Shown here in pieces: positions 1 to 57,181 of a stretch of DNA of 64,000 nt. Made by a program: the position numbers and the translations under genes. Location: positions 1,013,197-1,077,196 of the forward strand of contig CM035320.1 in NCBI GenBank assembly GCA_000497125.2, read 5' to 3'. The notes under the pieces were generated by a model. That model saw only the letters and a program-made list of their open reading frames with translations. It searched no databases and was not told the DNA's origin. Every line of letters starts with the position of its first letter. The first letter of the stretch is position 1. The DNA is from Spironucleus salmonicida (lineage: Eukaryota > Fornicata > Diplomonadida > Hexamitidae).

Positions 1-2
1 AA

Positions 3-5352: not shown

Positions 5353-7137
5353 TCACTCCAGTAGCGTCTGGGCGAGCATTGTAAGCTCGCTGGCTAGGGG
5401 TATTATCTTCTGTCGGTACACGAATGCCACCAGATTCGCAGGCAACACCACAATCTTATCTACACTATGGGTTTTCTGATACATCGTTTTGTCTCTCTGG
5501 ATGTAGTGTCGCCCCACCGGTATATGCATCCTAGCATATACACCTTCCCGCTGTATGAAGACCCGGAGATTAAATGTATTAATACGGTTATAACGACGCT
5601 AAAAATACCCATATTCCTTTCCAATTGCTTATATATCAATTTTTATTATCGTTCTGGATTTGATTATCCTGACTAGGACTTAAAATTCGTAATAATCGGT
5701 CAAAACTTAATAGATCGACAAAATTTTAACTTTAGGGGTACCAAGTTGGATTAGATGTGATAACCGCATCATTTTGAGTTCCAGCTCAGTAACTGACGGT
5801 TACAAGTAGATCTTCCATATTCTAACAGTATCTTTGAATGTACCACCGAGAATTAGCTTCTGAAGTTTATCTGCCTTCTGCAACACCATGGTAAGAGAAG
5901 GGTCCACAGATTTCATATAGTGCACAGTTAGCTCCAGCAGGTTCGGTAGCGTCTCAGTATCGCACGAGAACTTCGTAATCTTGCATTTATAGATGGACAC
6001 GCTCCGGATGCTGTGAGGTAGGTAGATTTAGCCCTGCATTCCGGTAATTGACAAATATTCCAGTGCTATCAGCTTTGAAATATCTGGTAATATCATATGA
6101 TTCCTATAGTTATTCGTCAGTTATAACTAGCGTATCTTAGGCGATATCTACACTATCATCTACAGTTTCTCGCCCAAGAACGTAACAGAACTAAATGCAT
6201 TGTCCACGGTCAGCTCGAGTAGGTTTGGTAGTAATTCAGCATCGCATTAGAATTTTGTAATCTTGCAGTTAGTGAGAGTGACACTCCGAATACCTTATGG
6301 TATATAAATCTCTCCCTTCCTGTAAGCTAAATTTAGAGTTTCGAGTAACTTTAGTTTGGAAATATCTGGTAATGTAGACACAATACCAAATTTACTCACC
6401 AACACCAGTTTCTGCAGTCCAGTCGCCTTCTGTAGTATCTAACTCAAAGATATATCTACATATGATACACTGTACATGGTGAACTCTTTTAGGTAAGGTA
6501 GTAACTCAACGTCGCAATATAACTTTGTTATACTGGATTTATCGATTTCTATGGTCCTAATGCTGGGAGGTAGGTAGACGCTACCTTTTGTACGAAATAA
6601 TTCCAGTGTCTCCAACTTCTTCAGGCTGGGCATCTCTGGTAGGATCAGACGATAGTATGTATAGTTATCCAAAGTCAGCTTCCGCAACTCTTGTGCGCCC
6701 TTCAGCACGTCAACAAGCGGTCCCCAGTCGCGTATCCATTTGAATCCATCTTTATTCAACGCTTAACCGCACGATACTGCCACCTCTGCGAGGTTCGGGA
6801 GGTCTCGCCCCTGGGGGTTGGTGCACGCAATGGGCGAGTCGACGATGGTGAGCCTGGCGAGGGCGTGGCTGACCTCCATACTGCCGCTCACCCGCGCCAG
6901 GCGCAGCTCTCGCACGTTCTACGCATGCTTCAGTGGCTCCGTGCCATCCATGTTCGCAAGATCCAGTCGGACCACCCCGGCCAGGCTCACCACGGAGTCC
7001 CACCCGCCGTCGAGCGAGAGGTGTGTGTCTGGGGAGGCGGAGGCGCCTGTCTATGGGACTGATATCGCGTCTTCACAGTCGTGGGTACTCTGGGGCGCAT
7101 CCCCGCCGCGGTCTGCCGAGCACGCACTTTATGTCAT
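5353..7137 (-). CDS. Leucine-rich-repeat protein (complete, left minus gene)
   Basis: 594 aa with TAA/TAG as Gln; start ATG at 7135-7137, TGA at 5353-5355. The N-terminal ~115 residues (MTQSACSADRGG..., then LARLTIVDSPIA and DLPNLAEVAVS) are GC-rich in DNA and shared with the LRR genes at 47814 and 54072. Several LRR super-repeats follow (LRKLTLD, YLPPSIRTIEI, KITKFSCD). The C-terminus carries the family end motif (FIQREGV, HYIQRDKTMYQ). It has a 24-bp in-frame insertion in the N-terminal part relative to the right copies, which supports the frame. It converges on the plus LRR gene ending at 1931. Its LRR part is clearly different from that of the right-hand partner gene. No TGA lies just upstream of the ATG, so the true start is uncertain. 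Confidence 0.88.
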
Positions 7138-8760
7138 TTTGATAGGGAGTAGCAGAGTGGCGAGTACCCAAATTCCGGTGTCTTGATACGCGCGCCTCTG
7201 GGCAGCAGAAGCCAGCCGCACCCTCCACGAGGCGCCAGCTTGCCTCCGTGATGTTCTTTGCGGCCCTGGCCAGCGCTCGTCCTGCTGATTACCTCACGCC
7301 CATCTAGTATGCCACCATGCGAATAGGAGCCCGCAGTCTACCCCGGCTCCCAGACGCCGCTGGGCTGGTTCTTGAAGGCGCTGCGACCGATGCCACGAGT
7401 CTGAGCGACGTTCGGGCACGGGCGCAGAGACAGGTATGGGCAGCTAGGCAATGCTATATCAATATGGAAGAGCGGGTTTATCTGCAGACTTTGGAGGGGT
7501 TGCGATAGAGAATCCCAACAATATGCTACCCCATCCATGCTGGTCGGGAGAAGGGTACCCCGGCAGCTCTCAAAAGGGGCCCTGGGAGTGAATGCCAACC
7601 GCGATGGCAATATCGGCGTGGAAAAGTATTTGCGCCGGGTCGTTCCTCACCTCAATACCACAACGGGGATATACATGTATCTGCACAGCTTAGTGTAGGC
7701 AGCATGCACACTTTAAAACGGTGGATGCAAATTACTCCTAGCGCTGCCTCGGTAGAGTCGTTGCGGCGGGGTCGGTACTTTGCTAGCGACTCGTCCATTA
7801 CTAACTTCGCAGCCCCGTTCGTCCCCGGGCAGGACAGCCGGGCGACCACTCTGGCCACGTAATGTGCTATGCCATAGCGAACGTCGAGAAGCGGCCCTGG
7901 GTCGGACGTGGGCCACCAGCTAGCAATACCGGCACGCCCTCAGGGCAGGGCACGGCACATTCAGTGGTTCGGACCCGACGCCAACCCAGCTCACAGCGAG
8001 CACGAGATAGTTCCAGGCGGTCCAGAGGAAGTCGTCTTGCGTGATGATTGCTGCGCTGGTACCGCTGGACACGAGCCTACCATGTTGGGGAACCGCTCCA
8101 CGTGGATGCCAGATATTCCGAGCAGGGGCGGTGGCACTAGGCCTTGGTTGCTCCCGGAAGTTGAGGATACACGGTTTAGGCCGTTGGCGTATATTCAGTA
8201 ATATAGTTCTGAAGCGGAGCGAAGATAGCACGATAGGTGTATGCCTGCGTGCTAAGCAGTGGTAGGCACGCGAAAGGCACCCTGGCTAAGGAATCGCAGA
8301 CTGCCTGTGACCCCGCAGGCGATCTCGGCGGCTTCTTTGTGTTGCTTCACTCTCCCTCACCACGCAGCAAATACACGCATTGATGTTAAACTCGTCTCTG
8401 GAATATGGCACTATCCCGCCTGCAGTTCCGGAGGTCCAGTTAGATTAGGATGCCCGGCACCGCGACCAGTAGCGCGCAGTCCCGGTCCAGGCTGATCCTT
8501 CCACGCTCTTTGTCGTCCAGCTCACACCACACCACTACACCGCACGAAAGCATTCTAGACAGAACTAGTAGGCATCGAGCTCCCGGCAGGTTAGGCTGCA
8601 AAGGGTGCCGCGCTAGCTACTATGGTCGCCACCGGCCATGCACCAGCTGCTGCCCCTCATGCACGAGTAGCAGAAAGACTCTCCATCCGTGTTCGCATAG
8701 TGGATCTCAATGCTGCCCCGCAGGAAGCACATCCCCAAAGTTCAGTGCAGTGTGGTAGTT
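7138..8760. other. GC-rich block 5' of LRR gene
   Basis: A GC-rich island in AT-rich surroundings, homologous up to about 8415 to 46.5-47.8 kb and 55.8-57.1 kb. On the plus strand two overlapping frames lack TGA for about 300-390 codons (one from about 7317 to 8495). Single-base indels near 7400 and 7755 break these frames in the right copies, and most substitutions between copies change residues in any frame. It may hold a divergent gene, a decayed gene or regulatory DNA; none can be supported. Confidence 0.45.
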
Positions 8761-10225
8761 TTAGCGATGTCTACCTCTAGAGCATTTAAAGATCCCCCAC
8801 TTCACCAATACTAGATTTATCGCATGACCTGATGCAGATGCTCTGGCAATTTTACGGGATGTCTGTCATACTTCCCCTGTGCCGCAGTAGCTAATACATA
8901 TTTACCATCTTGTGCATCAAATATGGCGGTAACGTTATAAAAAATATCGCATGAGCTATGTGAATGACAATTTATTCATTGTGGTATATTTGTGAGAGAT
9001 AGCATAGATTCTATATTACTTACTTTCTAATACGGGCTTAGGCATTGAGTCACTTTTTGTGTTATAGCTCTTCTACCAAATATTTCCAAATCTGAAATTC
9101 GCAATTTTCAAAATAGTATATATCTACTCTGAACAAAACAGCATGAAAGAGGCATACTCAATATTATTTGCACAACTACAGGTATGACACATTGAGGAAA
9201 TTATGCTCTATTGTGATATTTTATATACAAGTAATTAACATCAGACTCATTTATTTTAAATATAACTTTTGAGATTGAGAGCGCGTGTATTATAATGGTA
9301 ACACCATAATGACTGTGAACTCGTATTCTTGGATTAATAACTTATCCGAATGATAATCACTAAGTTTCCAATTTATTTTTATAGAAAGCCTTGCATACAA
9401 ACTTGACTAGAGTTAGCTATTGTAGTATTTTACAAATAGTTTTTATAGTCATTAATACTACTCATTACATAATTATCATAAATGTATATTCCTAATTTCT
9501 ACTAACCGCATATAAGGCTACATTAACTTGACACTATTATACTAATTGGGTCGCTAATATGAAGTAACCATGGTGGAATTGTACATATTCACCCTATTTC
9601 AAGTCTGGTATGAACAGCCAAGCCAACGAATACAAATTATAGAAACTGTACTGTTTTAAGGTTTGGGATAGTATATGCTTACTTCTTACTTTTGCTAATA
9701 TTAGTGTAACTAGTAAAATTTGTAATTATTATATTATGGCGTAAATATATTCACACAATATAAACAATAGACGGAACAAGAATTACTAAAACTAAATAGC
9801 CCTAAGCAGCACTCCTAAGAAAGCATAGAACTTAAGAATAGGTCGATGAGTGGTTTTATTAAATGCCGTAATATCCAACGATTACATTAAATAAATTGAA
9901 TTGAATATACTACTGGAGATTAATTGGCCAGCGCGAACATAGTTCAATTATCATTTACCTAATACACACTTGAATATATATACCTCAAATACTAGTATAA
10001 GGTTAGAAAAAGTTATAATTTCTTTTACTCAGTGTTTGATACTCGCGATAGCATAATGAAAATGCAAATAGTTGTATAATCTACCACAAAATTAGTATGG
10101 TTATTTCTATATAAAATCAAAGCACCATTTACCAATGGTAGCTCAACCTGTGGTTTCCGCAATACATTCTTTGGGAATTATCTTAGTTTAGTCAGAATAT
10201 ATACTATAATATGTTGTCTATAAAA
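8761..10225. other. AT-rich intergenic, nothing recognised
   Basis: Low-complexity AT-rich DNA with no long TGA-free frame of coding character, no RNA gene and no repeat recognised. Confidence 0.6.
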
Positions 10226-11671
10226 ATGTTGCTGTCACTATAAATATCATGCCTTTTGAATTCAAAGGCAACCTACTTAATGCAAACCAATACTATGCAC
10301 TTCCAGTCTGGCCTCAACCCGTACCTCCTCCCAAAGGAGAAAATTCTATGCGACCAGTTCATGGGCGAAACCGTCAACTTAGTCATTTTGATCGGACCGT
10401 ATACCTTCAAAGCCGATGCTATTTTGTACTCATCACTATCTCGGGTGATTTTAGCGTCCGAAGACGCAAACCATGATGATATCGACCTGTATACCGTTGC
10501 AAAGTTCACTCTCGTCCTCACGAAGCAGCTCGTGGACTAGGCAGGATAGATTGACTCTTTCGCGATCAGAAGGTTCAGCAGGACCTCGTGCATCAATTCT
10601 GGAATTTTTATCTGCGACGATACCAAGATGCAGCTGCTTTTCAAGAACGAGACCTGTGCATTCGACGCTAGTCTAACGCAAGTAATTGTGCAATTTTTTA
10701 ACTAAGGAGATGTAATAACCGTAATGAATTAGAGTGCTGGCGTTGTTGACTTCGACCAGATAGCCGTCATGGACGTTAAGGCGACCTGTGCCGACCAGGG
10801 GTGCCGTGATAATTTGTCCCAGCTCAGTTAGCTCGACGCAGTGTTTGGGTACTTCCTTTTCAAGACGGAATAGAAGATGACCAAGAAGGTTCGTGCATAC
10901 AATAACTCCGGTATTGACGCGGAGGTGGAGCTGGAGCTCACATTCTATATGCGGAATTTGGCGCAGGTCGAGTACATGAAGTCGTTCACAGACGTCACGC
11001 AAGTCGCTATCTTCCACGTATAGAAGGAGTATTTCGTCGTGACAAATTTTCCGAACCTGGCCTAGGACATAAGTGGCCTGACCTTCATTATCACCAACTC
11101 CACTGACTTCTTCTCCCTGACCTCACCACCCCAGTCCACCTCCGCATTCATCATTAACTGCGTTGGTACCTGCGATAAAACCCTCGCCGCTATCCATGCT
11201 ACCATGGCTACCGACAGTATTTCTTTCGCCCTAGCACAGCAGACTGGCACATAACAGAAGATCCTCATACCTGCGACCGCGCTCTTCACGTGCATATCTG
11301 CATCTGCCATCAAGTTATACAAGACGCAGATCTGTGCTGTGATTGAGCTGTATGCTGGTTGTGAGTTTGATTTTGGGGTCCAGATCGTGCGAATCGATTT
11401 CGACGGTCTCAGTTTCCAGGGCAGTTTCGCCGTAAACTTCGTCGATGTGGCATACTGCTTCGAGAGCGACTCCCACATCAGCTCTAGCATCCAGGGCGGC
11501 AATAGTGTTGGTGTGGTTCAGATAGGAACCTAGATCTACCCTTTCGGACATGTTTTCGCACTGATTGAGAGCTCGAGCCTCTGGTTAGGCTGGTGCGTCT
11601 TCGCAGTGTTACTAGTCATGACAATGACGGGTGGGCTGCTGTGGGTGCTTCTACGCGAGGTGAAAGCATGA
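10226..11671 (+). CDS. Type I membrane protein, unknown family
   Basis: 481 aa; the ATG at 10226 is chosen because it gives a hydrophobic start (MLLSLQISCLL) resembling a signal peptide. TGA is at 11669-11671. The body is a probably extracellular, beta-rich-looking sequence with paired Cys (GTCDKT, ATCADQGC, ETCAFD) and some N-glycosylation sites. A single membrane segment near the end (LWLGWCVFAVLLVMTMTGG) is followed by a short cytosolic tail. In-frame TAG/TAA codons confirm the Gln code. GC content is higher than the flanks. The next gene follows 226 bp downstream on the same strand. I recognise no domain; a surface receptor or adhesin is possible but unproven. Confidence 0.85.
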
Positions 11672-11897
11672 AAGTCGGGGTGAGCGTATGAAATTCATTC
11701 ACAGCACGCAGATCAGAACCCAACATTTCTCAGCCCTGGTACCAAATACACATTAGCACACTGTAGCGCACTGCGGGTGTTCATTTGCATGCTGTGGGCA
11801 GACCACCTTGCGAGCATTTTGCTTCACATCGAGCTGTATGACTGTGATGAAAATTCGCCCACCCTAGTCTATCCATATATGAACATTCCACTCCAAA

Positions 11898-13343
11898 ATG
11901 CAGATCTCACTCTCGTTCCAGGGCGGAGGTGCCTTTCAGTACCTCCTGCAGACCACGGTCGATGGCGTACTATACAAGACGCCACTTCGCAGGGAGTCAT
12001 CATAATCTTCGGAGCTGCTTCCGCACACACCCACGTTCCAGCTTCTCTGCCAGGCCCCGGGCCGCCCGATCCAGGTGCACGTCTTAGACTCCAGATCGGG
12101 GCAGATCTAGATTCAGGGGGTCTCCCTGCGCTACACCGTCGACTCCACGTAGAAGCTTCGCTACGCTGCTTTCGAGGTTTCCACCCTTCAGCGAGTATTT
12201 CCTGAGCGCGCGGTCGTCCACTTCTCGTAGTACTCAGCGGATGCTGGTAGGCATGTGGTTGTCCCACAAGGTGACTTTTCGGTAACTTGGATTATGTAGA
12301 CGCCCGTAGGACAAATTGAGACGGCCAGACTGCACGTGGGTGGAGGCCCTTTCAGCTATTTCCAGATTGAGCACGGAGTTCCAGAGTTATCAGCCAGTCA
12401 GTAACTATTTTTGATACTACTGCAACAAAAACTTAGCCCCAAACAGACAAAACTTGCTGCGGCGCTCCTGCCGCTATTTCGGATGGATACTCTAGGCACG
12501 GATAAGCAGTTTTAGAAGCTGGCCAAAATCTCGAAGGGACCACCTCTAAGCCTTTCAGCCGTCTTACTACGTGTATTTTGTGGTAGTCCTGGGGAGCTCC
12601 GGACTCCATCAACTTCCCTATTTCTGCTATCCGAGGAGCGGTTAACGGTGGACTAGCTTCGCCCGGTAAAGGTCAATGCATCCTCTTATCGAGTATCCCC
12701 GCAGACTTTCTCGCTGCTCGGCGCGTCCTATGGCGCCACGGTCCCGTAGACCGATTTCTTTGTGCATGCAATCGACTTTTCAGATGAGGCACCAGTGGAC
12801 ATCCAGCTCTTCCGAGATCTCCTCCGCCTAAACGACGGCAAGACCTCGATCGGTATGGGCTTCCAGACTTTGGAAGTGTTTGTGGAAGGATCGTACGCGG
12901 CTCCTGCTGGGTCTCCTTGTATATACCAGCAGGTGGTTCGGAAACGCATCACATTCCAGTAGTAGACCCAGACGCATGCAGAAGTCCTGGTATGTAGTTA
13001 AAATAGGCTTGTGCAAGCGTAGGCCGACTGGACGGAGGGATTTTCGGAGGATTCATCTGAAATACAAACACCAATGATAGAGGCCCCTAAGGCTCAAAAA
13101 CCTGAAGCTACGCCACGGCACGTTCACAACAGCACACCCGGTAAAGCAACTGCACTGAAGTCCTCATTTTAGGACCGGACGACGGCTACCAAGCTGCAGA
13201 CCTTCCCGAAACGAGCCAACTCACAAATGCAGATCCCATAGGTTCTAGCTATGCCGGGACCAGACACAGCTGCTGCCAAAATCGCGAAGCAAATTAACGA
13301 GGCAAAGCGACGCGTGAAGGCGCTGGGCTTTTAGCGGAAGTGA
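11898..13343 (+). CDS. Unknown 481-aa protein with basic C-terminus
   Basis: Open from ATG 11898, just after an in-frame TGA at 11880, to TGA 13341-13343, with many TAG/TAA as Gln. The N-terminus (MQISLSFQGGGAFQYLL) is not a signal peptide. The middle is globular (FFVHAIDFSDEAPVDIQLF); residues from about 370 are low-complexity, rich in Gln, Thr, Lys and Pro. The end is a basic helix (AKQINEAKRRVKALG). No membrane segment is seen. A shorter overlapping frame from 11789 starts plausibly but stops at 12203 and is probably a shadow. A cytoskeletal or basal-body role would fit the composition but is a guess. Confidence 0.75.
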
Positions 13344-13544
13344 GTGGATTTTCGCGGCATGTGTTAGGTGCGAATTTTACTTAGAGTTTTCTGCAGCAGT
13401 CTAGACTTGGAGGTCAGTGCGCAGAGGGAAATCGCAAAATTTTGCGTATTCGTAAGGAGTAATTTTCTGGTGATATAATGCTAGCAATGCAGCAAATCGC
13501 TTGAAACAGGGCATTTCCAGCGTAATACGAAAGAAAAACAAGGC

Positions 13545-29310: not shown

Positions 29311-29742
29311 ATGAGTCGACCTATGTCTACTAGTAAATTTTATCTTAGTAATAGTAATACTGTTACTTTTTAAGAAAGGATAGATTTTGATAATGTATAT
29401 CTTAGATTATCAAAAACATGTTAGGATTAAGAGTATTAATAAAAATAACAAATTTATGCATCTGTATACTATAAATAACGAGAAATTCTCAATAAAATAA
29501 AAAATGAAGAGATTGAAAGGACTATTGTAAAACATGCTATTTCAGATCTCCAGAAAATCACAGCTTTAGCGAGTGCAAATAGATACAAAAAGTACTAGTA
29601 ACATATCCCAGGGCAGCCTTATAGAAAAAGTCGAGATACAATTGAGTAAGATACGTTTGATTTGGGATTTGATATTGTAAGCGTTATAGACAGATGTGCA
29701 ACAAGAAAGTCCCTCAATTAGAGCTAGACAAAGTTTAAATGA
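29311..29742 (+). CDS. Unknown 143-aa protein
   Basis: ATG at 29311 after ATTAAAG; TGA at 29740-29742. About fifteen TAA/TAG read as Gln, including a Gln-rich run (QDQEYQQKQQ). N-terminus is Ser/Thr-rich (MSRPMSTSKFYLSNS),  the middle is helical (LNKIKNEEIERTIVKHAIS) and the end is polar (RCATRKSLNQSQTKFK). No signal, membrane segment or family. The ATG-to-TGA frame with coding-like content in AT-rich flanks supports a gene. Confidence 0.7.
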
Positions 29743-30148
29743 TTGTAGCAATAATATGCTACTTTTTATCATGTGTGATAGTTAATAAATATATATTATT
29801 TATGCAATTAAATTATTTAAGAGTAATCATCAAACAAGTTTTAAAGATTACATGCAAAAAATTATGATTTAACACGCTCTTAAGGTCTAGTTAGCAAAAA
29901 ATTAGCACATATACTTAACATTATTAAATAGTATACTTTGTACACAAAATATTACAACAGTTTATAATTATACTACCCATTACAGCTAAAATCATATAAT
30001 ATGTATTATCTAAACCTACAATCGTGTTTAGTACCTAAATTACAAACTATTATGTCATCAATAAACCTTAGCTTTAATCATTTATATAAAATTACCATAT
30101 TATATATTACAATCTCTATATACTTTCCCACTCCAATTTTTTAAAAAT

Positions 30149-39917: not shown

Positions 39918-40560
39918 TCTAAAATATCGGTATGGGAGTATAAGTGAATAAGAAACGCAGTTAGAATATTTTGAAAAACACTACAGTATGTATCTTAGGA
40001 CAATAATGGGAGTTTAATTCAGGCAACCATACATAGCACATTGTGTGGATAGTAATGCAATAATCCGAAATTTAGTTTAAATATAGAATATTCATCCTCA
40101 ATATTACTAATATTAAAATAATTAAGTTTATACATATACTAAATTAACTTAATTTAGTATATATAAAATTTTGTGGTTTAAGTGTGATTACTATTTGATA
40201 TTCTATAACAATAAAGTACTAAACTGGTATATATATAATATTTATAATTAATTTACTATAACTAAACTATTAGGTAATAGAGAAGTTATCTTGTAAATTA
40301 GTTTCTTAATGATTGATAATTTTTTACTTTTACACAATAGCATTAACTATACATAACTGCAGCAAAGCAATAAGCTAGGTAATCTATTAGATAATAATAG
40401 GATGTCTATTTTTTATCTGCTAAATTACAGGTGAGATGAAAATACGCTTGGCACTAATTATTTAGCTATTCATCTATCCAGTATTTGTCTACCACCCGTG
40501 TAGCTAGTTTCCCTGAAATATCTATGCATTATTTATTTATACTAAATATTATATAATATA
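39918..40560. other. AT-rich intergenic
   Basis: AT-rich; holds the upstream region of the VSP-like gene. Nothing else recognised. Confidence 0.5.
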
Positions 40561-43500: not shown

Positions 43501-45599
43501 CTCTATAGCTTGCCTGACCTCGAAATGCTAGGAATCATCAACAGGTGGGCTTCTATGTGGCGAAGTCCTGCTTTCTCGGGTTGGTGGGCAGCCGTTGATG
43601 TTGGGAAGGTACATACGTATTCAGCCTTTTAGACGCCAGGTTGCGTATCTAATATGAAACTATATTTTCCATATTTGATGTGGACATGTCCAGTTTCCTG
43701 CTCCCACTAGTAGATTATGGGAGTAACTTAACATCATTTTGCCGATAATTTTAGAAGGGTTGGTAGTTATTAGGTATGCTAGAGTACAGTAGCATAGGTT
43801 AACTGCAAGTTCGGTAAAGAATGATTATTGGGTCATATTCTATCCGCATTGATTATAGGTATTACTGTTGCTAATTCCAGAAACATAACTATTAAGCGCA
43901 TTAGAGGTTCCACAAGAGAGGAAGGGAAACGTAAGAAAATATACTTAAATTTCTGGTAATGCTAGTATGCATTAAGGCCAATCAAGTTTCAGTCTAACTG
44001 CCATACTAGCCTGTATCTAAAATTATAATCAGAAATCTGATTAAACGCACCACTAGAGTGTAGTACGAGAATGCATGAAAGAATAACTTACCGTACTGAA
44101 ATAGCTGATGGCATTGCGGTGAAAGGATCTCTCCTATATTCTCACAATAGTCAAGCCGCGCCAAGTATTAAAGTTCCAGCGTACAATACCCAATTAATAG
44201 TGCTACCAGCTTTGGTGAAACCTCCCATGCTTGATAAAATGCAGCGGAAAGGATATTTCGGTCGGGTGGTTAGATTTATGTAGCATCTACTTGGAAATGA
44301 AACAATAGCTATAAGCTGAGAAATCATCGTTCTATAAGCAGCGCTCCAATATAATAACTTCGCCATAAGGTACGGTATTATCCAGCAGCTGTGCAGAATA
44401 ATTTATTCACTAATTGGCCAAATCGCTGAGTCTTCCTCCTGATATCCAGGTCTCCTTCACACTTGAAGGCTGGCCTTTTGCCTCTCCTACGCCCAAGGTG
44501 GCGACTTGCGTCAAACCTTAACAGACTTTACCATAACTAAGGCTATGAGCGTATAGGATTGGGCAAGCCTTAACCACTGCCAACATGAAGTTTGCATACC
44601 ACTTGATTTTAAGGAATATCCGCGCAGACCATTTCTGGCGCTCCCTAAATCCTCATGGTGCATAATTGTCTCCATACTTCAACCTGCAATGGGTTTATTA
44701 CTTTATGGTATATATTGCAAATACACAAAAATAATTAGGCCTTACATTAAATTAAGCAGTAGTCATATACATAAGCCAATATTGTGTAAATAAGAAGCTA
44801 CCCTCGTGTGCTGATAAGTTTAAATTACCGCTAGACATGCATTAAAGGAAGTTTACCATTAATATATAATATTAGTTTTTACTAACACTTTGTCGGTCTA
44901 TTTCCTATAACAGAACTAGTTGAATTGGTTATGTCAGTTTCTTCTGCATACTACGAAGGTACAGTAACATAAAAGAACCGTTATACAGGTTGCAGTAATC
45001 TCAGCGAGACACAATTTGGAAATATACACGCAATAGCTCCTAACTAGCATAACAGACCAAATTAATTGTTGGCTTTAAGTGCTTTTCGCGACCTTCTTTA
45101 TAAATTTAGACACTTAACACGGCAGTAAAGATAATCACGCCACACCAGTCACTAATTAACCAGTTCTGTACAGGTTAGCATATACAGCATATGACCAAGA
45201 TTTTCCAACAGCATGCCATTCATTACAAAATTGATAGTAAGTCGATTTCTGAAAATGGGTATGTTATAGCTATTATAGCGCAAGCAGCAGTTAACATCCC
45301 TTCCGCAGTGAAATTTAATATTTTGTAGAGCAGACGGTTCTGCCTACCCTAGAACTGCGGAGTTCGACTTTAACATGTTGTTATTTGCTGAGTAGTAAAT
45401 CGTACTATGGTGACGAATACACCGAGCAGAGAACAATAAATCATTAGTGCAGTACTAGGAGCATACACTGTAAGTTGGTAGAAAAATAATTTTGAACTCC
45501 AGGTCAGAGTTTCGCACCAGTTTTGCCGGATCGCTTCGTCGTGGTATGGTACTGTTTAGCCCTTAGTCATGGGTAGGCTCATCAGGTTTTGGCAAACCT
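40561..45599. other. 5-kb mixed-composition stretch without convincing genes
   Basis: GC is clearly higher than ordinary intergenic DNA here, yet no long coding-like frame was found. Short TGA-ended frames occur, for example minus 40903-41088, plus about 41947-42190 and plus 44071-44316, none with a recognised motif. It may be decayed genes or an old mobile or repeat sequence. Confidence 0.45.
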
Positions 45600-47813
45600 T
45601 CACTTCGCGTGGACGCATGATTCTATTGCTTTCCACATACGCTAAGATACGTTTTCTAGTTTACAGTAATTCCCAAATGTCTAAAAATGGAATCGCATTT
45701 AGTATCCACATTTAATTTAAAGCATGCATGAGATATTCTTAATATAGTGTTGATTGGTGATAACATTGATATGCGCATTGTTATAGCGTTCTTCGCTTCT
45801 AAATGCATAATTTATTTTTATATGCAGCAAGGCGCTTAACTAACATCTGTAAACTTTCAAGTTGGTGTAAAATTACCCAGAGTGGCACACCACCTTGCGA
45901 AGTATAAGGTACCGAGGTGCCCTGTGCTGCCTCCACCGGGTACGCTTCCAGCGTTTCACGCCTTGGCTCATGTATCCCTGGAATGGATTGTTCGCCAGAC
46001 ACGAAAATAGTATGCAGTATGAACGTACGTCCAGGTGGAAGTGCGAGCGCAGCACTTCAGTCCCTGCCCCGAAGCCCTATCGCGGTATACTGGGCGGACT
46101 ACGCACCCAGCTGTCCGCGTATGACTAAAATTTACACACTCCATACAGAACTTCAGGGTCTGCGCGTCCTTTGGGTGCCGTGTGAAGATCCCCTGCGCTG
46201 ATGGCGACGCTGCATTATCCTACTACGCGTGCCTGCGGGCGAGAAGCGGTGTTGGCCCTACAGTATCTCCACCTACAGGACATGCTGCAACAGGAGGGCA
46301 GAGTGCGGCACGTTCGGGACAGCTGGGCGTCCGTGAGGGGTACCAGTACTGCACGGTGCCAGTGCTTGCTCGCCCACGGAGCTCTCTTCGGGATTCCCGG
46401 CCGCAGATCACCTTCGACGCTACAGTAGCTGGAGACATGCGGCCTGATAACCCTGGACCGGAAAGATATGCTTGTTGCGGTGCCGGGCATGCTAAACTAA
46501 GTTGATGTAGTAGGTACAGGGTAGACTTTCTGGTCTGGATGGTGCCATATTCCAGAGACGAGTTTAACATCAATGCATGTATCTCCTGCGTGGTGAGGGA
46601 CAGTGAAGTAGCACAAAGAGGCCGCCGAGATCGCCTGCGGGGTCACAGGCAGTCTGCGATTCCTTAGCCAGGGTGCCTTTCGCGTCCCTACCACTGCTTA
46701 GCACGCAGGTATACACTTATCGTGCTATCTTCGCTCCGCTTCAGAACTATATTACTGAATATACGCCAACGGCCTAAACCGTGTATCCTCAACTTCCGGG
46801 AGCAACCAAGGCCTAGTGCCACCACCCGTGCTCGGAATATCTGGCATCCACGTGGAGCGGTTCCCCAACATGGTAGGCTAGTGGCCAGCGGTACCAGCGT
46901 AGCAATCACCACGCAAGGCGACTTCCTCTGGACCGCCTGGAACAATCTCGTACTCGCTGTGAACTGGGCTGGTGCCGGGCCCGAACCACTGAATGTGCCG
47001 TGCCCTGCCCTGAGGGCGTGCCGGTATTGCTAGCTGGTGTCCCACGTCCTACCCAGGGCCGCTTCTCGACGTTCACTATGGCATAGCACGTTACGTGGCC
47101 AGAGTGGTCGCCCGGCTGTCCTGCCCGGGGACGAACGGGGCTGCAAAGTTAGTAACGGACTAGTCGCTAGCAAAGTACCGACCCCGCCGCAACGACTCAC
47201 CGAGGCAGCGCTAGGAGTAATTTGCATCCACCGTTTTAAAGTGTGCATGCTGCCTACACTAAGCTGTGCAGATACATGTATATCCCCGTTGTGGTATTGA
47301 GGTGAGGAACGACCCGGCGCAAATACTTTTCCACGCCGATATTGCCATCGCGGTTGACATTCATTCCCAGGGCCCCTTTTGAGAGCTGCCGGGGTACCAT
47401 TCTCCCGACCAGCACGGATGGGGCAGTATATTTTTGGGATTCTCTATCGCAACCTCTCCAAAGTCTGCAGATAAACCCGCTCTTCCATATCGATATAGCA
47501 TTGCGTACCTGCCCAGACCTGTCTCTGCGCCCGTGCCCGAACGTCGCTCAGACCGTGGCATCGGTCGCAGCGCCTTCAAGAACCCGCCCAGCGGCGTCGG
47601 GGATCCGGGGTAGACTGCGGGCTCCTATTCGCATGGTGGCATACTAGATGGGCGTGAGGTAATCAGCAGGACGAGCGCTGGCCATGGTCGCACAGAACAT
47701 CACGGAGGCAAGCTGGCACCTCGTGGAGGGTGCGGCTGGCTTCTGCTGCCCAGGGACGCGCACCGCAAGACACCGGAATTTTGGTACTCGCCACTCTGCT
47801 ACTCCCTATCAAA
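45600..47813. other. GC-rich block 5' of right-hand LRR gene
   Basis: A GC-rich island. On the minus strand one frame lacks TGA from about 46950 to TGA 45600-45602; it passes through the inverted-arm border at 46465 into unrelated sequence and then AT-rich DNA. On the plus strand another frame is open from 47342 into the LRR gene in a different phase. Substitutions relative to the left copy do not favour any frame, so no gene is called. Confidence 0.4.
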
Positions 47814-48151
47814 ATGACATAAAGTGCGTGCTCGGCAGACCGCGGCGGGGATGGTCCCCAGAGTACCCAGGGGGGCTCAGGCACCTCCACCTCCCCAGAT
47901 ACACACCTCTCGCTCGACGGCGGGTGGGACTCCGCGCTGAGCCTGGCCGGGGTGGCCCGACTGGATCTTGCGAACATGGATGGCACGGAGCCACTGAAGC
48001 ATGCGTAGAACGTGAGAGAGCTGCGCCTGGAGCGGGTGAGCGGCAGTATGGAGGTCAGCCGCGCCCTCGCCAGGCTCACCATCGTCGACTCTCCCATTGC
48101 GTGCACCAACCCCCAGGGGCGAGACCTCCCGAACCTCGCAGAGGTGGCAGT
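46465..48151 (+). repeat. Inverted repeat arm, left (1,687 bp)
   Basis: The reverse complement of 55495-57181, with the same length and no net indel (the ATG lies 1,349 bp from the outer edge in both). Sequence starts ATATGCTTGTTGCGG at the outer border and ends within GAGGTGGCAGT of the LRR gene. Only scattered substitutions by eye. No transposase, no short terminal repeat and no obvious target duplication. Confidence 0.9.
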
Positions 48152-50654
48152 GTCCTCCACATTTTAAGGGGGTTATTACTCATGCTTAGGGAGTCACGGC
48201 TGGTTGCATCTGGTCCATGTATTATAAAGGGCGAACCAGCTGCGATGCCTGACGCTAGATTGTGATGGTAGTGACTACGAGTATCCGCCATATATGACCT
48301 AACTGAAGTAACTGGAGATGTTAGTGCTCACTAGAATAAGGGGAAGCGTTTACTTATCCCATAGCATACGGAGTATCACTCTCACTAACTGTAAGATTAC
48401 TAACTTCTAGTGTGATGTTGATTCGCTACCGGACCTGCGAGAGCTTACCATAGTAGATATTAATAAAGAGCAAACTTTCCTGAGTAAGATACTGGAGAGG
48501 GCCCACGGGCTGCGTAATCTGACGCTGTAATATGTTGGTATATATTATAGCAAATATTAAGTTTAGATACTAGATATCTCAATGTTGAAGTTTCTGGAAA
48601 CATTAGTTGTTACTGAAATAAATGTTGATCTATATCTACCATAAACTATACGAAGTATCACACTCAAAGATTGTAATATTACGAACTTCCAGTGTGATGC
48701 TAAATTGCTTCCCGACCTGCAGGAATTTATCTGGGATGAGGTCAGTAATGGATATAATTATGTGAGCAGTATACTGCAGAAGACGAAATAGTTGCGGAAG
48801 CTGACACTAAAATCTAACGGTGGGTATTCAAAATATTTACCAGACATCTCAGAGATTAAGCAACTAGAGATATTAGTGCTCACTCATATCAGTGGTAATA
48901 TATATTTATCTCCCTGCATACGGATCGTTATACTCAAGAATTGTAGGATTGACAAATTATATTACAGTTCTAACTACCTTCCGGACCTACTAGAACTTAC
49001 CATAATAAATATAGCTCATGATTAGACTTTCCTTGGTAATTTACTAGAGAAAGCAAAATAACTGCGAAACCTAACACTAATGGGTAACTCTATATACTAC
49101 TCACATACACCATGTATGTCATACATGAAATAGCTGGAGGTATTAGTGCTTGATAGAATGAGTGGTGATATCTACTTGTCTCCTAACATACGCAGCATTA
49201 CCATCACGGATTGCGCGATTCACAGTATTTAATTTAGTGCTGAATCTTTGTCGTAACTGTAGGAGCTTACCTTGTGTAGTGTTAAATATGATAAAACTAT
49301 CCTAAGTTAGATACTTTAAAATGCGCATAGGTTGCAGAAGTTTAAACTTAAAGATAATGGTATCTTATAGTACGGTCCGCCAGACATCTCCTCGCTAACG
49401 TAGTTAAAGATGGTAAAGTTTTCCAACATTTATGGTGATATATACTTGCCCTCCTGCATAGAAAGCTTTACTCTTAACAATTGTAAGATTAAAAAAGTCC
49501 AGATCGATGCTGAATCGTTGCCTCATCTGCAGGAATTTACCATAATTGAAGTATCCTATTATTAGAATTTCGTTAATAAAATACTGTAGAAGTCACATGG
49601 GTTGCGTAATCTAACAATGAAAAGTAAAGATAATAATTAAAAATATCCACTAGATATGTCAATGTTGCAGCAGCTGGAGATAATCATGCTAGATAGAATA
49701 CGTGACAATATCAACTTTCCTCCAAGTATACGAACAGTTACTCTCAAGGATTGCACGATTACTGACTTTCAGTGCAATGCTGAGTCACTATCAGCTCTGT
49801 GGGAATTCACCTTGCTGGATGTAAGCTGTGATTAAAGTTAACTGAATAATTTATTGCAAAAGATGCATAGCTTACGACACCTTACACTGGAACGCGGTGG
49901 CCGATCAAGCTCTAATTATAAATTTTATCTATTAAAAATATTCTCAGGGAAGTATCTGGAAACATTATGTCTTGAATAAATGATATGCACTATTTACATC
50001 TCTTCTACCATACGGAGCATCTTCCTCACATAGTGCACGATTCACGGAGTGTAGTGTAGTAGTGACTAAATCTTAAACCTACGAAAACTTTCAATGATTA
50101 ATGTGAATGCTCCAAAAACTGCATTGCGTAATGTTCTACAGAAGGCAAACAGGCTTCAGAGCCTAGTAGTGCACGGATACTACAGAAAATCTTATACTAT
50201 CGCGTAGCTATACCTGCAGCCATCAGTGTTGGTGTTGGATCTAGAAAATGTGAATGTCAATCAGCTAGTCTTGACCGCTGCTCCTCGCATAGAAAAACTA
50301 CGGCTCCATCATATTATCGTTAAGAAAAATTATATGCCTGAAATATCCAGGCTGATTAAGGCTAAGACAGCCACCCTTCTTGACGTTAGTGACATTAATG
50401 TGGATGTTGGGACGCTGGCTGATCCCAATCTCGCATAATTTGCTCTTTCTACATTTATCCAGAGAGCTGGGATGGATGTTAAGCTGAATCTTACTGTGGG
50501 GTGTCACTACTACCAGCGTGGTAATATGATGTACCAGAATGATGATAACACACCGGCGGCGCTGCCCACGAGTCTTACTATCTTCCTGTTACAACTAAAG
50601 ATCAGATAATTGTCCAGTGAACTGGTCGTACTGGGTATGGCGCTGGCGGAGTGA
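47814..50654 (+). CDS. Leucine-rich-repeat protein (complete, right plus gene)
   Basis: 946 aa; ATG 47814-47816, TGA 50652-50654. The N-terminal ~115 residues are GC-rich in DNA and carry a low-complexity Ser/Thr/Gly stretch, then LRR-like strands (ARLDLANMDG, VRELRLERVSG, ARLTIVDSPI). Eight super-repeats follow, starting at nt 48240 and spaced 270 or 282 bp. They contain YLPPSIRSITL-type and NCKITNFQCD segments. The C-terminal end matches the other LRR genes (FIQRAGMD, HYYQRGNMMYQ). Upstream of the ATG the frame stays open to TGA 47655, including a hydrophobic run (TGILVLATLLLPIKM) without an ATG before it. 48726-50654 is almost identical to 3-1931. Confidence 0.9.
48240..50153 (+). repeat. 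LRR super-repeat array, right copy
   Basis: Super-repeat starts at 48240, 48510, 48792, 49062, 49332, 49602, 49872 and 50154: spacings 270, 282, 270, 270, 270, 270 and 282 bp. Whole codon-multiples keep the LRR phase. The left copy shows the last six. Confidence 0.85.
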
Positions 50655-50693
50655 ATCCCTTTCATATATCTCTATTCTAATATTATCCTTCTA

Positions 50694-51002
50694 ATGACCA
50701 CTTGCAACATATGTTTATTGGCTGCGCTTACGCTAACCCATCCAATCACTCTTCAGCCACCTGCTGTGAAAGTACTTTACACACATTCATCAGAAGGAAT
50801 TTATATAACTCTATCTGTAGCTTCAATATATGATACGTCTGCCGATTTCCACATTGCTCATAAGCTGGATGTGAGTCATTCTCATATTTCAGAGAGTTTA
50901 TTATATATCGTATTATTTACATTCCAATAAGCTTATGCTTGCAATATAAAATCATTTAACAACGAAACTTGTTGTATTAATACAAAATTTGATACTAGAT
51001 GA
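50694..51002 (+). CDS. Small open frame, copy of 1971-2279
   Basis: Same 102-codon frame as the left copy, ending in TGA, with a hydrophobic N-terminus. Support is weak for the same reason: the DNA is almost identical between copies. Confidence 0.25.
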
Positions 51003-51093
51003 ATATAACCAACTGAGCTCCATGTGAATGTGGCTGCGCATGATTGATAAAATATACTGAATATAACGTCTACATTGTGCAGGTTCACGTGGC

Positions 51094-51621
51094 ATGTCTT
51101 ATTTCTGCCATACTTTCATACTCCAAATTTGTATCATTTCTAAAATTCTGACACCAGTTAATCTGACACTTACAACACGAGTAGTATACATTTTATCAGT
51201 TGATGCTGACTGTAGAAGGCTATTTCCTGATAGTATAGCGGCTACAGGCTCTATACCTTACAATTATACGTCAAAAAATATTCTAAGTACGATTTGTGAT
51301 AGTTAAATTTGTTTCCAAACAAGAGTAACCATTTTAGAAGATATATTAGATCAATTTAAGCCCCTGCTGTCCTTTTGCCATTTCTTTTTCTCAATGTCAG
51401 GCGCTACTGCTTAATAGTTGCTATTTGACATATATATTCTAGCATATTTGTAGCCAGCCTACTATCTTGCACCCCATACACCTCTCCTGACAACATTTTC
51501 ATCCCACACAAGATGCCAGATAGGGGATCCGACTAGATATCCTAATACCTATACCTAAGACATTCAGGTGAATTTCTCCCACTTTTATTAGTGTATATAA
51601 CCAGAATTCGATCGCTTCTGA
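51094..51621 (+). CDS. Open frame, copy of 2371-2898
   Basis: Same 175-codon frame as the left copy, retaining the TGA at its end. Unknown; possibly a decayed secreted-protein gene. Confidence 0.25.
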
Positions 51622-54071
51622 CCAATAAACCAAATATGTTGGCTTCAGCTACAACAGCAATCCCAGGTGAACAGTGAAGCCAGTGCTGGCACTATTCATA
51701 CAAATATTCTTCGATTTCAGCTAACTGCGCAAAAACATCTTATCAGCGTCGTGATCTCCGCTGCGAATGTAATTCCAAAATTTTATATTCTTATATATCA
51801 AAATTATGCCTTTTTGAAACATCGGCTGTTCCCTAGAATTTTTCAAACCAAGTCTTAAAAGCCAGATAGACTTAATAATGTATGTTCAAATTTCTTTAAA
51901 ACAATTTTTCAATTCCATAACAACCGACAAATCCGTTATTTCCTCAATAATCTACCCTTTTCCTTAATATTTTTAATCTAGTTCATCTGTTATATCACCT
52001 CTAAAATAAATTATTACCATAAATCTCACTCCATTCCGAACATGCCCAAACTGTTCTCGCCTGCAAGACCCACTCGCTAAAATACAAGTAGTGGAATTCC
52101 ACGTAACATCACCATAATGAATTTTTAGTCTCAAACTTGAAAACGCCAATTCCACATATTTATTAATTTTAGAGGACAAATTTACTTATTTCATGAGGTT
52201 TACTCTCGAGGGCAAATTATTCGGAATACGCGAATTCAGCTACAAAATTAAAATTTTTTGCACCTAAAGCAGTCGGATTCGCGCGCAAAGATGGCTTTTT
52301 GTTATATTAAATGCGAAATGCACGGTTTCAGGAAGTCGAAATAGGTGCTCCTGACGTCAGCAGGCGCCAGATTTCGAGGGTCAATTGGCATACGCTGACG
52401 AAAATCTGGATTAAATCGTCTGAAAAGTTGTATAAACACGAAAATGAGCTATGTGAGAAAACGATCTGCCACCGCATTTTCGACTTCAAAAGTTTCAAAA
52501 AATGCAGGTAAAGCGAATACAGCGCTACCCCTGCGCAATCATCAAACTGCAGTTTATGGAGAATAAGGCTAGGAGCTCTGCGGGGTCCATCTGGTGCCGT
52601 TCGTTGAAGTTGCGCGGATGCAAAGGAAAATACACGATTCTCATTTCCGTTAGATTCCGCGGTTAGGGGCTGAATTTCAGAGACACGATAAAGGGCTTTC
52701 CGGAAGTAATACTGGGGGAAAATTAATTACTCAAAGGGAATGGGAGCTGCTGGCTGACGATGACGAAACCTGTGATGCATCCAGTTATAGTCCACCGGTG
52801 GCTCTACCAGCAGCTAATCAGCAGTTACTTCGCTATGTATATTTTTTGTTCGGTACCATCTGGCGGTAATCCTCAGAAAGTCGCCCAAGAGCCGTACTGA
52901 CAAAGTTAACCACACAGTCAATTATGGTCCCAAACAACGCGCTCAAGGCAGCGAACGTCCAAGTTTAAGCGAATGCTGGAACCAAAAAGTTCTATTTTAA
53001 TCTCGTATAGTTGCTGTAGGACCGTAAAAGAAAACTTAGACCGTTGATTCAGTCTCAATAGAGATTTAATCCCGAGGGTCTAGTCGTACATCAAACTGGT
53101 GCGGTTCTGCCAGGTGAGTTTCGACGATGAGTCCATGAGTGGTGTAGAGAACAGGAGCAGGGACGCTTAAAATTGAGTTAGATCATGCAGTTCTGCAGAT
53201 AGAAAATGCAGGAACATGAGTACGGATCCGTGAACTAGAAGGACCCCACGTTAGAAAGTCCGCCAGAAGCCGCCATGGCTCTGTCTGACACTAGGGACGT
53301 GGGATCTGGTAGTTCATCACTCACGCGAGTTTACAGGTCTGGTAGCACCTTGGCTTGCCGTGCAGTGGCTTTTACTGTGCTGTTGGGGCGCTGCGGACTC
53401 CCTGCATATATTCCTAAGCGCTAAACGGTGATTGCAAAATGGTATTCTGGAGAGACAAGGGTGCGTGGTTCACGGTCGTAGGGGACAGTTTTGGTTGCTT
53501 CTGGCGGGTTCTCCTTTCGTGAATCTGCACTTTCTCAACGGCTGAGCCTGGAGGCGAAGCTGAGAGGTCCACTGGTCTCGATGGGTGCGGGGAGTAGCGC
53601 TGCGAGGTCATGGCTGCAATGGTAGATATGTAGTTCCGAGCACTGCCGATGTTTAATGCTACCTGACTCTAGATGAGAAAGGTCGGGTAGGTGAGCAGAA
53701 GTTTGTAATTAGACCTATAATATAATACTCATGATATTCTCACTTAAATGCACGGCGAAGTCCGAATCCAGCTCAAGCTGAGGGGAGGCAGGCGTACCGC
53801 GCACTGAAACTACCCCAACAGTTTATTACTACCAGCGGACTCACAATACAGTCCTAATACAGGCTAGTAGCCATTGTGTGGGATACCCTGTACCCCAAGC
53901 ACGGAGGATCTCGGGCATCCTGCGGGTGCACGGCGTCCAGACCACATTCCTATGGATATCAAGCGCAGCCGTGAGATAAAGCAGTGCAGTACGGGAATCA
54001 CCTGTGGGTGCGACCACGGCGTAGTAAACACCCAAGCTGTTCGCATTAGGAGCGGGAGATTTCGAGACAGC
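51622..54071. other. Spacer between convergent LRR genes, right copy
   Basis: Corresponds to 2899-5352, with more substitutions and a few 1-3 base indels. No convincing gene. Confidence 0.5.
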
Positions 54072-55832
54072 TCACTCCAGTAGCGTCTGGACGAGCATAG
54101 TAAGCTATCTGGCTAGGGGTATTATCTTTTGCCGGTACACGAATGCCACCAGATTCGCAGGCAACACCACAATCTTCTCTACACTATTGGTTTTCTGATA
54201 CATCGTTTTGCCCCTCTGAATATAGTACCGCCCCACTACCATATCTATCCTAGCATCTACACCGTCCCTCTGTATGAAGGCCTGGAACACGAAATTTAGA
54301 TTACTGATACATAATACACCATACATATGGTGTATTAACCCTATGTTGAGTATTTACATACTCGATATTGTTCTGGATTTAATTAGCCTGATTAGCACTG
54401 GAACTCTGTAATCGTGAGTGCCAACATTATTGAGCAATAAATTTTTGACTCCAGGGGTCCCAACTAGGATCAGTTCTCCAAAACATATATTTTACAGTTT
54501 CAGGATCGTAACGGATGGCTATAGGTTGATACTCCCAATGTAAACAATACCTTTCATCCACCCATATATAATTAGATTCTGAACTTTAATTGCCTTCTGC
54601 AGCACCATGGTCAGAGAAGGGTCCACGTATCTCATATAGTTTATGGTTAGCTCTAGCAGGTTCGGTAGCGTCTCGGTATCGCACGAGAACTTCGTAATCT
54701 TGCATTTCTCAATGGACACGCTCCGGATACTGGGAGGTAGGTAGATATCACCCTCCATTCCGGCGAGTGTCAGAAATTCCAGTACGGTCAGTCTTGAAAT
54801 ATCTGGCAAAAGCATACGCTGCATGTAGTTATTCTCCAGTTTTAACTTCTGTAACATAGGCGATATCTATACTATCGTCTGCAGTTACTCGCCAAGGCAA
54901 GCAACCGCACTGAATGCATTATACACAGTCAGCTACCGTAGGTCTGGTAGTGACTCAGGTTAGTACTATAGCTTCGTAATCTTACATCGCGTGAGGGTGA
55001 TGCTCCGGATACTTGGTTGTAACGAAATCTCACCCTTCATGTTTTCTAGGTTTAGGGTATCCAAAACCTTTAGTTTGGACATGTCTGGCAGTGGAGTCAC
55101 AATATACAAATGCATCCCTAGCTACAGCTTACCCAACCTAGGTGCCTTGTGCAGTATCTAACTCAGAGATATATCTACATGTGCCATACATTCCATGATG
55201 AGCTACCGCATGTCCGGTAGTGAATCAACATCACATTAGAACTTTGTAATTTTACATCCTATTAGGATGATGCTCTGGATATTTGGAAGTAGATGGAGAC
55301 TACCCTTTGTACAGCATAGTTACAGTGTCTCTAACTTATACAGACTGGGAAGCTCAAACTGAATGAAATTATGGTGATGGGAGTTTACCAATTTCAGCTT
55401 CCGCAGCTCTTGTGCGTTCTATATCAGGTTAATAGGCAGTCCCCAATTGCAGCTCATCTTGAATTGACTCTAATGCAACGTTTAGCTGCACTATACTGCC
55501 ACCTCTGCGAGGTTCGGGAGGTCTCGCCCCTGAGGGTTGGCGCACGCAATGGGCGAGTCGACGATGGTGAGCCTGGTGAGGGCGCGGCTAACCTCCATAC
55601 TGCCGCTCACCCGCTCCAGGCGCAGCTCTCTCACGTTCTACGCATGCTTCAGTGGCTCCGTGCCATCCATGTTCGCAAGATCCAGTCGGGCCACCCCGGC
55701 CAGGCTCAGCGCGGAGTCCCACCCGCCGTCGAGCGAGAGGTGTGTATCTGGGGAGGTGGAGGTGCCTGAGCCCCCCTGGGTACTCTGGGGACCATCCCCG
55801 CCGCGGTCTGCCGAGCACGCACTTTATGTCAT
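54072..55832 (-). CDS. Leucine-rich-repeat protein (complete, right minus gene)
   Basis: 586 aa; ATG at 55830-55832; TGA at 54072-54074; many in-frame TAA/TAG. The N-terminus is nearly identical to that of the plus gene at 47814, because both lie in the inverted arms. LRR super-repeats follow (LRKLKLVNSHHHNF, LLPNIQSIIL, KITKFQCDVDSLPDMRQL, KITKLQYQPESLPDLRQL, SVSIEKCKITKFSCDTETL). The family C-terminus is FIQRDGVDAR, RYYIQRGKTMYQ. The central LRRs differ strongly from the positional partner at 5353-7137, although both ends are close. Confidence 0.88.
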
Positions 55833-57181
55833 TTTGATAGGGAGTAGCAGAGTGGCGAGTACCAAAATTCCGGTGTCTTGCGGTGCGCGTCCCTGGGCAG
55901 CAGAAGCCAGCCGCACCCTCCACGAGGTGCCAGCTTGCCTCCATGATGTTCTTTGCGGCCCTGGCCAGCGCTCGTCCTGCTGATTACCTCCCGCCCATCT
56001 AGTATGCCACCATGCGAATAGGAGCCCGCAGTCTACCCCGGCTCCCAGACGCCGCTGGGCGGGTTCTTGAAGGCGCTGCGACCGATGCCACGGTCTGAGC
56101 GACGTTCGGGCACGGGCGCAGAGACAGGTCTGGGCAGGTACGCAATGCTATATCGATATGGAAGAGCGGGTTTATCTGCAGACTTTGGAGAGGTTGCGAT
56201 AGAGAATCCCAAAAATATACTGCCCCATCCGTGCTGGTCGGGAGAATGGTACCCCGGCAGCTCTCAAAAGGGGCCCTGGGAATGAATGTCAACCGCGATG
56301 GCAATATCGGCGTGGAAAAGTATTTGCGCCGGGTCGTTCCTCACCTCAATACCACAACGGGGATATACATGTATCTGCACAGCTTAGTGTAGGCAGCATG
56401 CACACTTTAAAACGGTGGATGCAAATTACTCCTAGCGCTGCCTCGGTGAGTCGTTGCGGCGGGGTCGGTACTTTGCTAGCGACTAGTCCGTTACTAACTT
56501 TGCAGCCCCGTTCGTCCCCGGGCAGGACAGCCGGGCGACCACTCTGGCCACGTAACGTGCTATGCCATAGTGAACGTCGAGAAGCGGCCCTGGGTAGGAC
56601 GTGGGACACCAGCTAGCAATACCGGCACGCCCTCAGGGCAGGGCACGGCACATTCAGTGGTTCGGGCCCGGCACCAGCCCAGTTCACAGCGAGTACGAGA
56701 TTGTTCCAGGCGGTCCAGAGGAAGTCGCCTTGCGTGGTGATTGCTACGCTGGTACCGCTGGCCACTAGCCTACCATGTTGGGGAACCGCTCCACGTGGAT
56801 GCCAGATATTCCGAGCACGGGTGGTGGCACTAGGCCTTGGTTGCTCCCGGAAGTTGAGGATACACGGTTTAGGCCGTTGGCGTATATTCAGTAATATAGT
56901 TCTGAAGCGGAGCGAAGATAGCACGATAAGTGTATACCTGCGTGCTAAGCAGTGGTAGGGACGCGAAAGGCACCCTGGCTAAGGAATCGCAGACTGCCTG
57001 TGACCCCGCAGGCGATCTCGGCGGCCTCTTTGTGGTACTTGACTGTCCCTCACCACACAGCAAATACATGCATTGATGTTAAACTCGTCTCTGGAATATG
57101 GCACCATCCAGACCAGAAAGTCTACCCTGTACCTACTACATCAACTTAGTTTAGCATGCCCGGCACCGCAACAAGCATATC
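55495..57181 (-). repeat. Inverted repeat arm, right (1,687 bp)
   Basis: The reverse complement of 46465-48151 with no net length change. It covers the LRR 5' end and the GC-rich upstream block. The outer border is at 57181, beyond which flanks differ. Between the arms lie 7,343 bp holding both LRR gene bodies and the spacer, so the whole unit is 46465-57181 (10,717 bp). Confidence 0.9.
55833..57181. other. GC-rich block 5' of right minus LRR gene
   Basis: Mirror copy of 46465-47813. On the plus strand a frame from ATG 56398 is TGA-free to about 57002, and a different frame is open through 57149; neither has a recognised product. Confidence 0.4.

Follow-up and report, generated by a model that had tools for sequence, protein, structure and literature searches.

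The stretch of DNA analysed here (hereafter the window) is 64,000 nucleotides long and corresponds to positions 1013197-1077196 of contig CM035320.1 (C5) in the 14.47-Mb, 37-contig genome of Spironucleus salmonicida, a salmon parasite whose assembly is given as 14.7 Mb in 42 scaffolds in the genome paper (PMC9509377). It contains three complete genes for leucine-rich repeat (LRR) proteins and a fourth that is cut by its left edge, all members of a family in which constant fronts are joined to variable repeat middles, probably as a result of gene conversion between copies. TAA and TAG are translated as glutamine in this species (PMC3916229), and all frames were read with genetic code 6, with TGA as stop; it is because of this reading that the LRR frames are open. 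An IFT140 gene at window 29393-34975 (+) also becomes a single frame, of 1861 codons, once TAA and TAG are read as glutamine.

Family members share a common plan: the front block leads into a first unit of 95-100 codons, after which come between one and six more units of 90-97 codons (mostly 270 or 282 bp) and, last, an end block. In the complete gene G3 (window 47814-50651, +, 946 codons, followed by TGA at 50652-50654, the whole feature being 47814..50654), the front block occupies 47814..48128 (105 codons, with a GC content at third codon positions, or GC3, of 0.79 as measured on its copy G1). It is followed by seven units, U1 (48129..48425, 99 codons), U2 (48426..48707, 94 codons, 282 bp), U3 (48708..48977, 90 codons, 270 bp), U4 (48978..49247), U5 (49248..49517) and U6 (49518..49787), of 90 codons each, and U7 (49788..50069, 94 codons), and by an end block of 194 codons (50070..50651), all on the plus strand. 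These bounds were set on G1, and G3, being a one-base copy of that gene, was left out of the unit comparisons. The units lie inside one open frame, and are not exons between introns.

A sequence-only reading of the window had already recognised the three complete genes and the partial one, as confirmed by the code 6 frames (G2, G3 and G4, with G1 entering at the left edge), as well as the 270- and 282-bp lengths, which hold for the internal units of the window genes (90 and 94 codons), the first unit being 297 bp long. Its count of about five to eight central units has to be revised to seven in G3 and G1 and three each in G2 and G4, the other genes having two and the two members known as database proteins four and three, hence a range of two to seven across the family. 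Its description of an N-terminal block and/or a C-terminal end module in common remains valid for the front block (105 codons, 113 in G2), the end module being well matched, beyond the near-identical G1 and G3, in G2 and G4 alone (61% amino acid identity between these two minus-strand genes, versus 31-34% between plus- and minus-strand genes). The cassette-like design that it proposed is sustained by the near-constant front block, a sharp junction, the varying number of units, and recombination among units of the genes on contigs C3 and C8.

Nine LRR genes make up the family, seven seen as DNA on contigs C5, C3 and C8 and two as database proteins only, the number obtained by genome search being a lower bound. 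On C5, G1 (C5:1012287-1015124, +) has its 3' part at window 1-1928 and differs from G3 by one base in 2838, while G2 (window 5356-7137, -) and G4 (window 54075-55832, -) have 594 and 586 codons, respectively. On C3 lie G5 (C3:1088372, +, 496 codons, equivalent to database protein P0006, SS50377_22980) and G6 (C3:1097735 downwards, -), and on C8 lies G7 (C8:189793, -, 489 codons, database protein P0007). The open frame is complete in six of these seven genes, the exception being G6, whose front block has a frame shift, either genuine or due to an assembly error. The last two members, Pa (P0002, SS50377_27753, 684 aa) and Pb (P0003, SS50377_27770, 590 aa), come from the contig that also bears the G7 protein, and were nevertheless found neither in the C8 sequence nor in the rest of the 37-contig genome searched. 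This genome is therefore incomplete, and Pa and Pb entered protein-level tests only. The database proteins carry the species name Spironucleus salmonicida, and a profile search for homologues elsewhere, which scored only the 7993 candidates with the most words in common, returned seven clear members, all from this species or the window, the next two being weak LRR matches. More distant LRR-like matches (20-26% identity) on C1, C3 and C6 were set aside. No description of it was found in the literature searched, including with four locus tags, and the main text of the 2014 S. salmonicida genome paper uses neither the word "leucine" nor "LRR". The LRR proteins of all diplomonads are tabulated in a supplement of PMC11437800, which lay outside this search and may count members.

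Three large inverted repeats each contain a convergent pair of genes, which accounts for six of the seven located ones; the seventh is the one gene located on C8. The first and larger C5 repeat has its left arm outside the window (C5:1005995-1012627) and its right arm at C5:1026628-1019969 (window 6773..13432, -), with 99.1% identity over 6660 columns; the fully identical stretch of the arms stops about 400 nt before the start codon. In the second, the left arm (window 46465..48151, +) comprises about 1.35 kb of upstream sequence and the front block of G3, and is 99% complementary to the right arm (window 55495..57181, -), made of the front block and upstream sequence of G4. These two C5 structures, 48.7 kb apart, have one block in common. 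The C3 repeat (C3:1084679-1091565 versus C3:1101434-1094534) is 97.1-99.6% identical, depending on the piece. From arm to arm, flanks are 96-100% identical and the LRR part falls to about 50-80%, while the upstream DNA compared between C3 and C8 is mixed (85-100% per 200-nt window, with one window at 69%). Because convergent genes sit between near-identical arms, a mobile element bounded by inverted repeats was considered, and rejected: the arms carry ordinary-looking genes (such as an F420 ligase) and the C5 arms are unequal in length (6.66 and 1.69 kb). No transposase or integrase profile matched among 14 non-LRR open reading frames (ORFs), a set that included some from beyond the repeats. 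A coding role for the 1.35 kb of GC-rich sequence that precedes the C5 genes was also considered, and rejected after none of the five ORFs tried gave a Pfam match.

Within each group of genes, front blocks are 93-100% identical. In G3 and G4, identity collapses at 48151..48152 (+), which is the end of the arm, and four gene comparisons place this junction at the same point to within 3 nt. With the start of a DLPNL motif as origin, G3/G4, G1/G2, G2/G4 and G5/G7 match for 29, 29, 31 and 29 nt, respectively, before their first mismatch, and 85, 88, 85 and 87 of the 90 nt preceding the motif are identical, the first three comparisons sharing front blocks and not being independent, and G5/G7 belonging to a separate group. 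On the end-block side there is no fixed break point, G2 and G4 being similar over about the last 34 codons only. Synonymous divergence (dS) is 0.037-0.074 in front blocks within a group (four pairs). It reaches 0.70, 0.86 and 0.40 in U1, U2 and U3 of G2/G4, with 0.44 in the end block, and 1.36 and 1.17 in U1 and U2 of G5/G7, with 0.13 in the end block; the values for G5/G6 are 0.05 (U1), 0.35 (U2) and 0.02 (end block). Silent changes exceed replacement changes in the units of G2/G4 (p 9.5e-7) and G5/G7 (p 4e-4), so that these units seem to be kept as protein, and the ratio of replacement to silent divergence (dN/dS) is 0.38-0.62 in the diverged units. Selection on the protein alone would not produce such strong silent-site divergence, and positive selection as sole cause is thus rejected.

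Signs of exchange are seen at two scales. At the scale of the gene, window 47694..51653 (+) and C5:1012167-1016126 differ by 1 mismatch in 3960 (3.96 kb), with the whole of G3 or G1 inside, while the flanks of this tract differ by 2.3-3.9% (47 in 1192 before, 55 in 2405 after), and the partner genes G2 and G4 of the same block are, unlike G1 and G3, far apart in sequence. The simplest reading is that the whole gene was likely copied recently from one locus to the other. At the scale of the unit, the pairwise homoplasy index (PHI) was applied to five sets with two to four window sizes each, p values being uncorrected, and gave a significant result with each of the four window sizes when applied to the internal units of the C3/C8 genes (p 0.0002-0.0005 with eight units, 0.0001-0.0007 with seven). 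The end of G6.U1 is closer to G5.U2 (50/54) and G7.U2 (47/54) than to G5.U1 (44/54), whereas the 33 nt just before this patch are nearest to G5.U1 (31/33, versus 26/33 for G5.U2 and 18/33 for G7.U2). G7.U1 is only 29-32% similar to its four counterparts in the same group, themselves 92-97% alike, and Pb.U2 and Pb.U3, 87% alike with one identical middle stretch, are likely a recent tandem copy. Exact matches of at least 15 nt between different unit positions number four in the C5 genes (15-16 nt); the C3/C8 genes have longer ones, of up to 28 nt, located at conserved motif positions.

Base composition differs along the genes, with GC3 values of 0.78-0.84 in front blocks and 0.35-0.68 in units. 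End blocks are at 0.86-0.87 in G5 to G7, where they are mutually alike, and at 0.46-0.49 in G1, G2 and G4, where they are not. Over 14 block comparisons, which are not independent, dS and GC3 are negatively correlated (-0.67, p 0.008), a pattern that would fit GC-biased conversion. Duplicated regions of this genome are also reported to be GC-richer (44.7% versus 30.7%), and gene conversion has been suggested for surface families (PMC9509377).

As for the encoded proteins, the three complete window genes score 88.2, 32.9 and 39.1 bits with the PF24758 profile, for a curated cut-off of 27. The score of 88.2 bits, together with the 99% complementarity of the second C5 inverted repeat, puts the repeats well outside what chance would give. 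Two AlphaFold2 models (pLDDT 73 and 71), in which the N-terminal 30-50 residues are modelled at low confidence, display regular parallel strands and a predicted solenoid, each unit being predicted to make four turns. The Pb model was aligned to solved LRR chains and VIA-align returns many of them, matches that indicate a fold and no function. In the five members scanned, F-box and LRR_5 profiles had no match at E up to 0.1, and the VSP profile had none. In six proteins, simple hydropathy revealed no candidate hydrophobic signal or membrane segment (maximum 19-residue mean 1.44), and cysteine content was 1.5-2.8%. Antigenic change, which the sequence-only reading had entertained, is not supported by these six proteins, which show no hydrophobic segment by simple hydropathy and are not cysteine-rich like the surface family of the parasite. 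Variable LRR receptors differ mostly on their concave face. Here, with positions assigned to classes by the analyst from the LRR pattern, mean entropy over 18 internal units was 0.86 in the core, 1.76 on the concave face and 1.97 in loops and helices (concave versus loop/helix p 0.11); the concave face is thus not the hot part, and its hypervariability was rejected.

Taken together, the data make it probable that this family of nine, with its constant fronts and variable repeat middles, was shaped by gene conversion between copies, combined with gain, loss and patch exchange of units of 90-97 codons. Exchange would take place between the two arms of an inverted repeat, with a bias towards GC, keeping front blocks (and end blocks in the C3/C8 group) alike and GC-rich, while units would escape conversion or be replaced. 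The products may be intracellular binding solenoids whose putative partners would shift as units change, and a recognition role of the units is possible.

Several observations weigh against this reading. In an assembly rich in repeats, polishing could give copies, such as the G1/G3 tract, an exaggerated similarity. G5 and G6 part near the end of U1 and not at the shared junction, their U1 being undiverged (dS 0.05), and constraint is uneven, as the silent excess in their U2 is not significant (p 0.12) and dN/dS amounts to 1.69 (16 changes) in their end block and, for G2/G4, to 1.04 in the central part of the end block. PHI gave no secure signal on the C5 units, those of the window itself (p 0.10, 0.31, 0.046 and 0.23), and none on Pa/Pb alone (p 0.64 and 1; 9 sites) or on U1 (p 0.72-0.90). 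The sequence-only reading had opposed shuffled units to units kept in one order with no sign of exchange, and both situations are encountered: the units of G2 run colinearly with those of G4, no reordering of whole units being seen between the two genes, and the U1 of G5, G6, Pa and Pb are colinear too, whereas exchange is detected among C3/C8 units by PHI and by the patch comparison. No donor copy of the divergent units was found in the 37-contig genome, the queries being three stretches as DNA and two members as protein. The last point comes from a neighbouring gene. An F420-0:gamma-glutamyl ligase domain (PF01996, E 6.6e-53), present in this diplomonad at C3:1098174-1099343 (-), and again in the opposite C3 arm and on C8, adjoins the LRR genes of C3 and C8. 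Between C3 and C8, it has a 62-codon in-frame island, with borders chosen by eye from the codon profile, where dS is 2.09 and dN 0.27, while dS is 0.26 and 0.055 on either side. GC3 dips in the island of the C3 copy (0.73 versus 0.95 and 0.98 beside), but the C8 copy breaks this rule (0.89 versus 0.82 and 0.97), and GC bias is therefore not uniform. As an island of the same kind exists in this enzyme gene, such islands are not peculiar to LRR genes and can arise without any role in recognition; what they attest to is patchy conversion, and taken alone they do not argue for a recognition system.

Could ordinary segmental duplication with patchy conversion suffice, the LRR islands being old divergence left unerased, with no useful swapping of units? 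The ligase island, the colinear units of G2 and G4, the lack of a secure PHI signal on C5, and the GC-rich duplicated regions with suggested gene conversion (PMC9509377) all speak for it, and this is a serious, though less probable, explanation, which accounts poorly for the PHI and patch data in the C3/C8 genes, for unit numbers of two to seven, including the tandem copy that probably arose recently in Pb, and for the isolated position of G7.U1. A more ambitious proposal is a germ-line LRR cassette system, in which a constant front would end at one junction where different arrays are joined, and inverted repeats would copy whole arrays between loci, renewing a small intracellular recognition repertoire; it is doubtful, and a little less probable again than plain duplication.

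Far less weight falls on two other explanations. Diversifying selection or targeted mutation of the LRR units for varied ligands, with flanks conserved by function, would agree with a change concentrated in units and a preserved front block, and is very unlikely given the strongly raised silent sites, the dN/dS of the diverged units, and the concave positions, whose variability does not exceed that of loops and helices. A repertoire of surface antigens or adhesins whose expression is switched, of the VSP/CRMP kind, could find some support in two cysteine-rich ORFs with a hydrophobic C-terminal segment (window 36187-37077, +, and 37554-40034, -), CRMP/VSP-like by eye, that lie between two LRR inverted repeats (the second, the one of the two scanned, has no Pfam match), and in the BspA-type surface LRR proteins of other protists (PMC11437800). 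It is the least credible of all: simple hydropathy shows neither hydrophobic signal nor membrane segment, cysteine content is low, and the five members scanned match neither the VSP nor the LRR_5 profile.

Other sequences accompany these structures. The near-identical arms of the first C5 repeat carry ORFs of 524 and 481 codons (window 10097-11668 and 11898-13340, +, with copies at C5:1006087-1009330) that have no Pfam match, the 524-codon one having a membrane-like terminal segment and weak PDB sequence matches alone (E 0.02). Mostly between the C3 arms, an ORF at C3:1091325-1094045 weakly matches zinc carboxypeptidases of the CCP-like kind (E 0.004, below cut-off), and shorter stretches similar to it exist in C8 and, between LRR genes, in C5. 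To the left of the C5 and C3 structures, window 43183-45555 and C3:1080610-1083109 are 67% similar as DNA, the C3 region containing a 1026-codon ORF and its window counterpart short ORFs alone (up to 228 codons).

The family provides a small, listed case in which silent-site divergence separates the constant from the variable parts of a repeat-protein family, which meet at a common junction, and in which there is also a sign that a whole gene was copied. Should other strains confirm it, gene conversion in inverted repeats would be tied to the way a parasite renews a set of proteins beyond the well-known surface families, with the warning, given by the ligase control, that divergent islands alone are no proof of a recognition function.

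Constant ends with variable LRR modules are a trait shared with lamprey variable lymphocyte receptors. Here, in contrast, six of the seven located genes already have their full open frame in the genome, with no incomplete germ-line gene to be finished by rearrangement, the greatest variability does not lie on the concave face, and no donor cassettes were found in the genome searched, which lacks two known members and was queried with part of the units as DNA. FBD and F-box LRR proteins (PF24758) share with this family the LRR profile matches above cut-off, and UniRef calls three members F-box/LRR-repeat protein 1; FBXL-type adaptors have their F-box at the N terminus, a domain for which the members scanned gave no profile match. 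BspA-like surface proteins are marked by LRR_5 repeats (PMC11437800), which likewise went unmatched here. The CRMP/VSP families of diplomonads have a comparable duplicated, GC-rich neighbourhood with suggested gene conversion, but are cysteine-rich, with a membrane segment in CRMP1 (PMC9509377), two traits not displayed by the LRR proteins. In Tetrahymena, LRR genes number in the thousands and are built from 90-bp exons between introns, against nine genes found and 270/282-bp units in one open frame in Spironucleus; both are nonetheless young protist LRR genes made of fixed-length tandem units, for which unequal crossing over has been proposed in Tetrahymena (PMC6564038).
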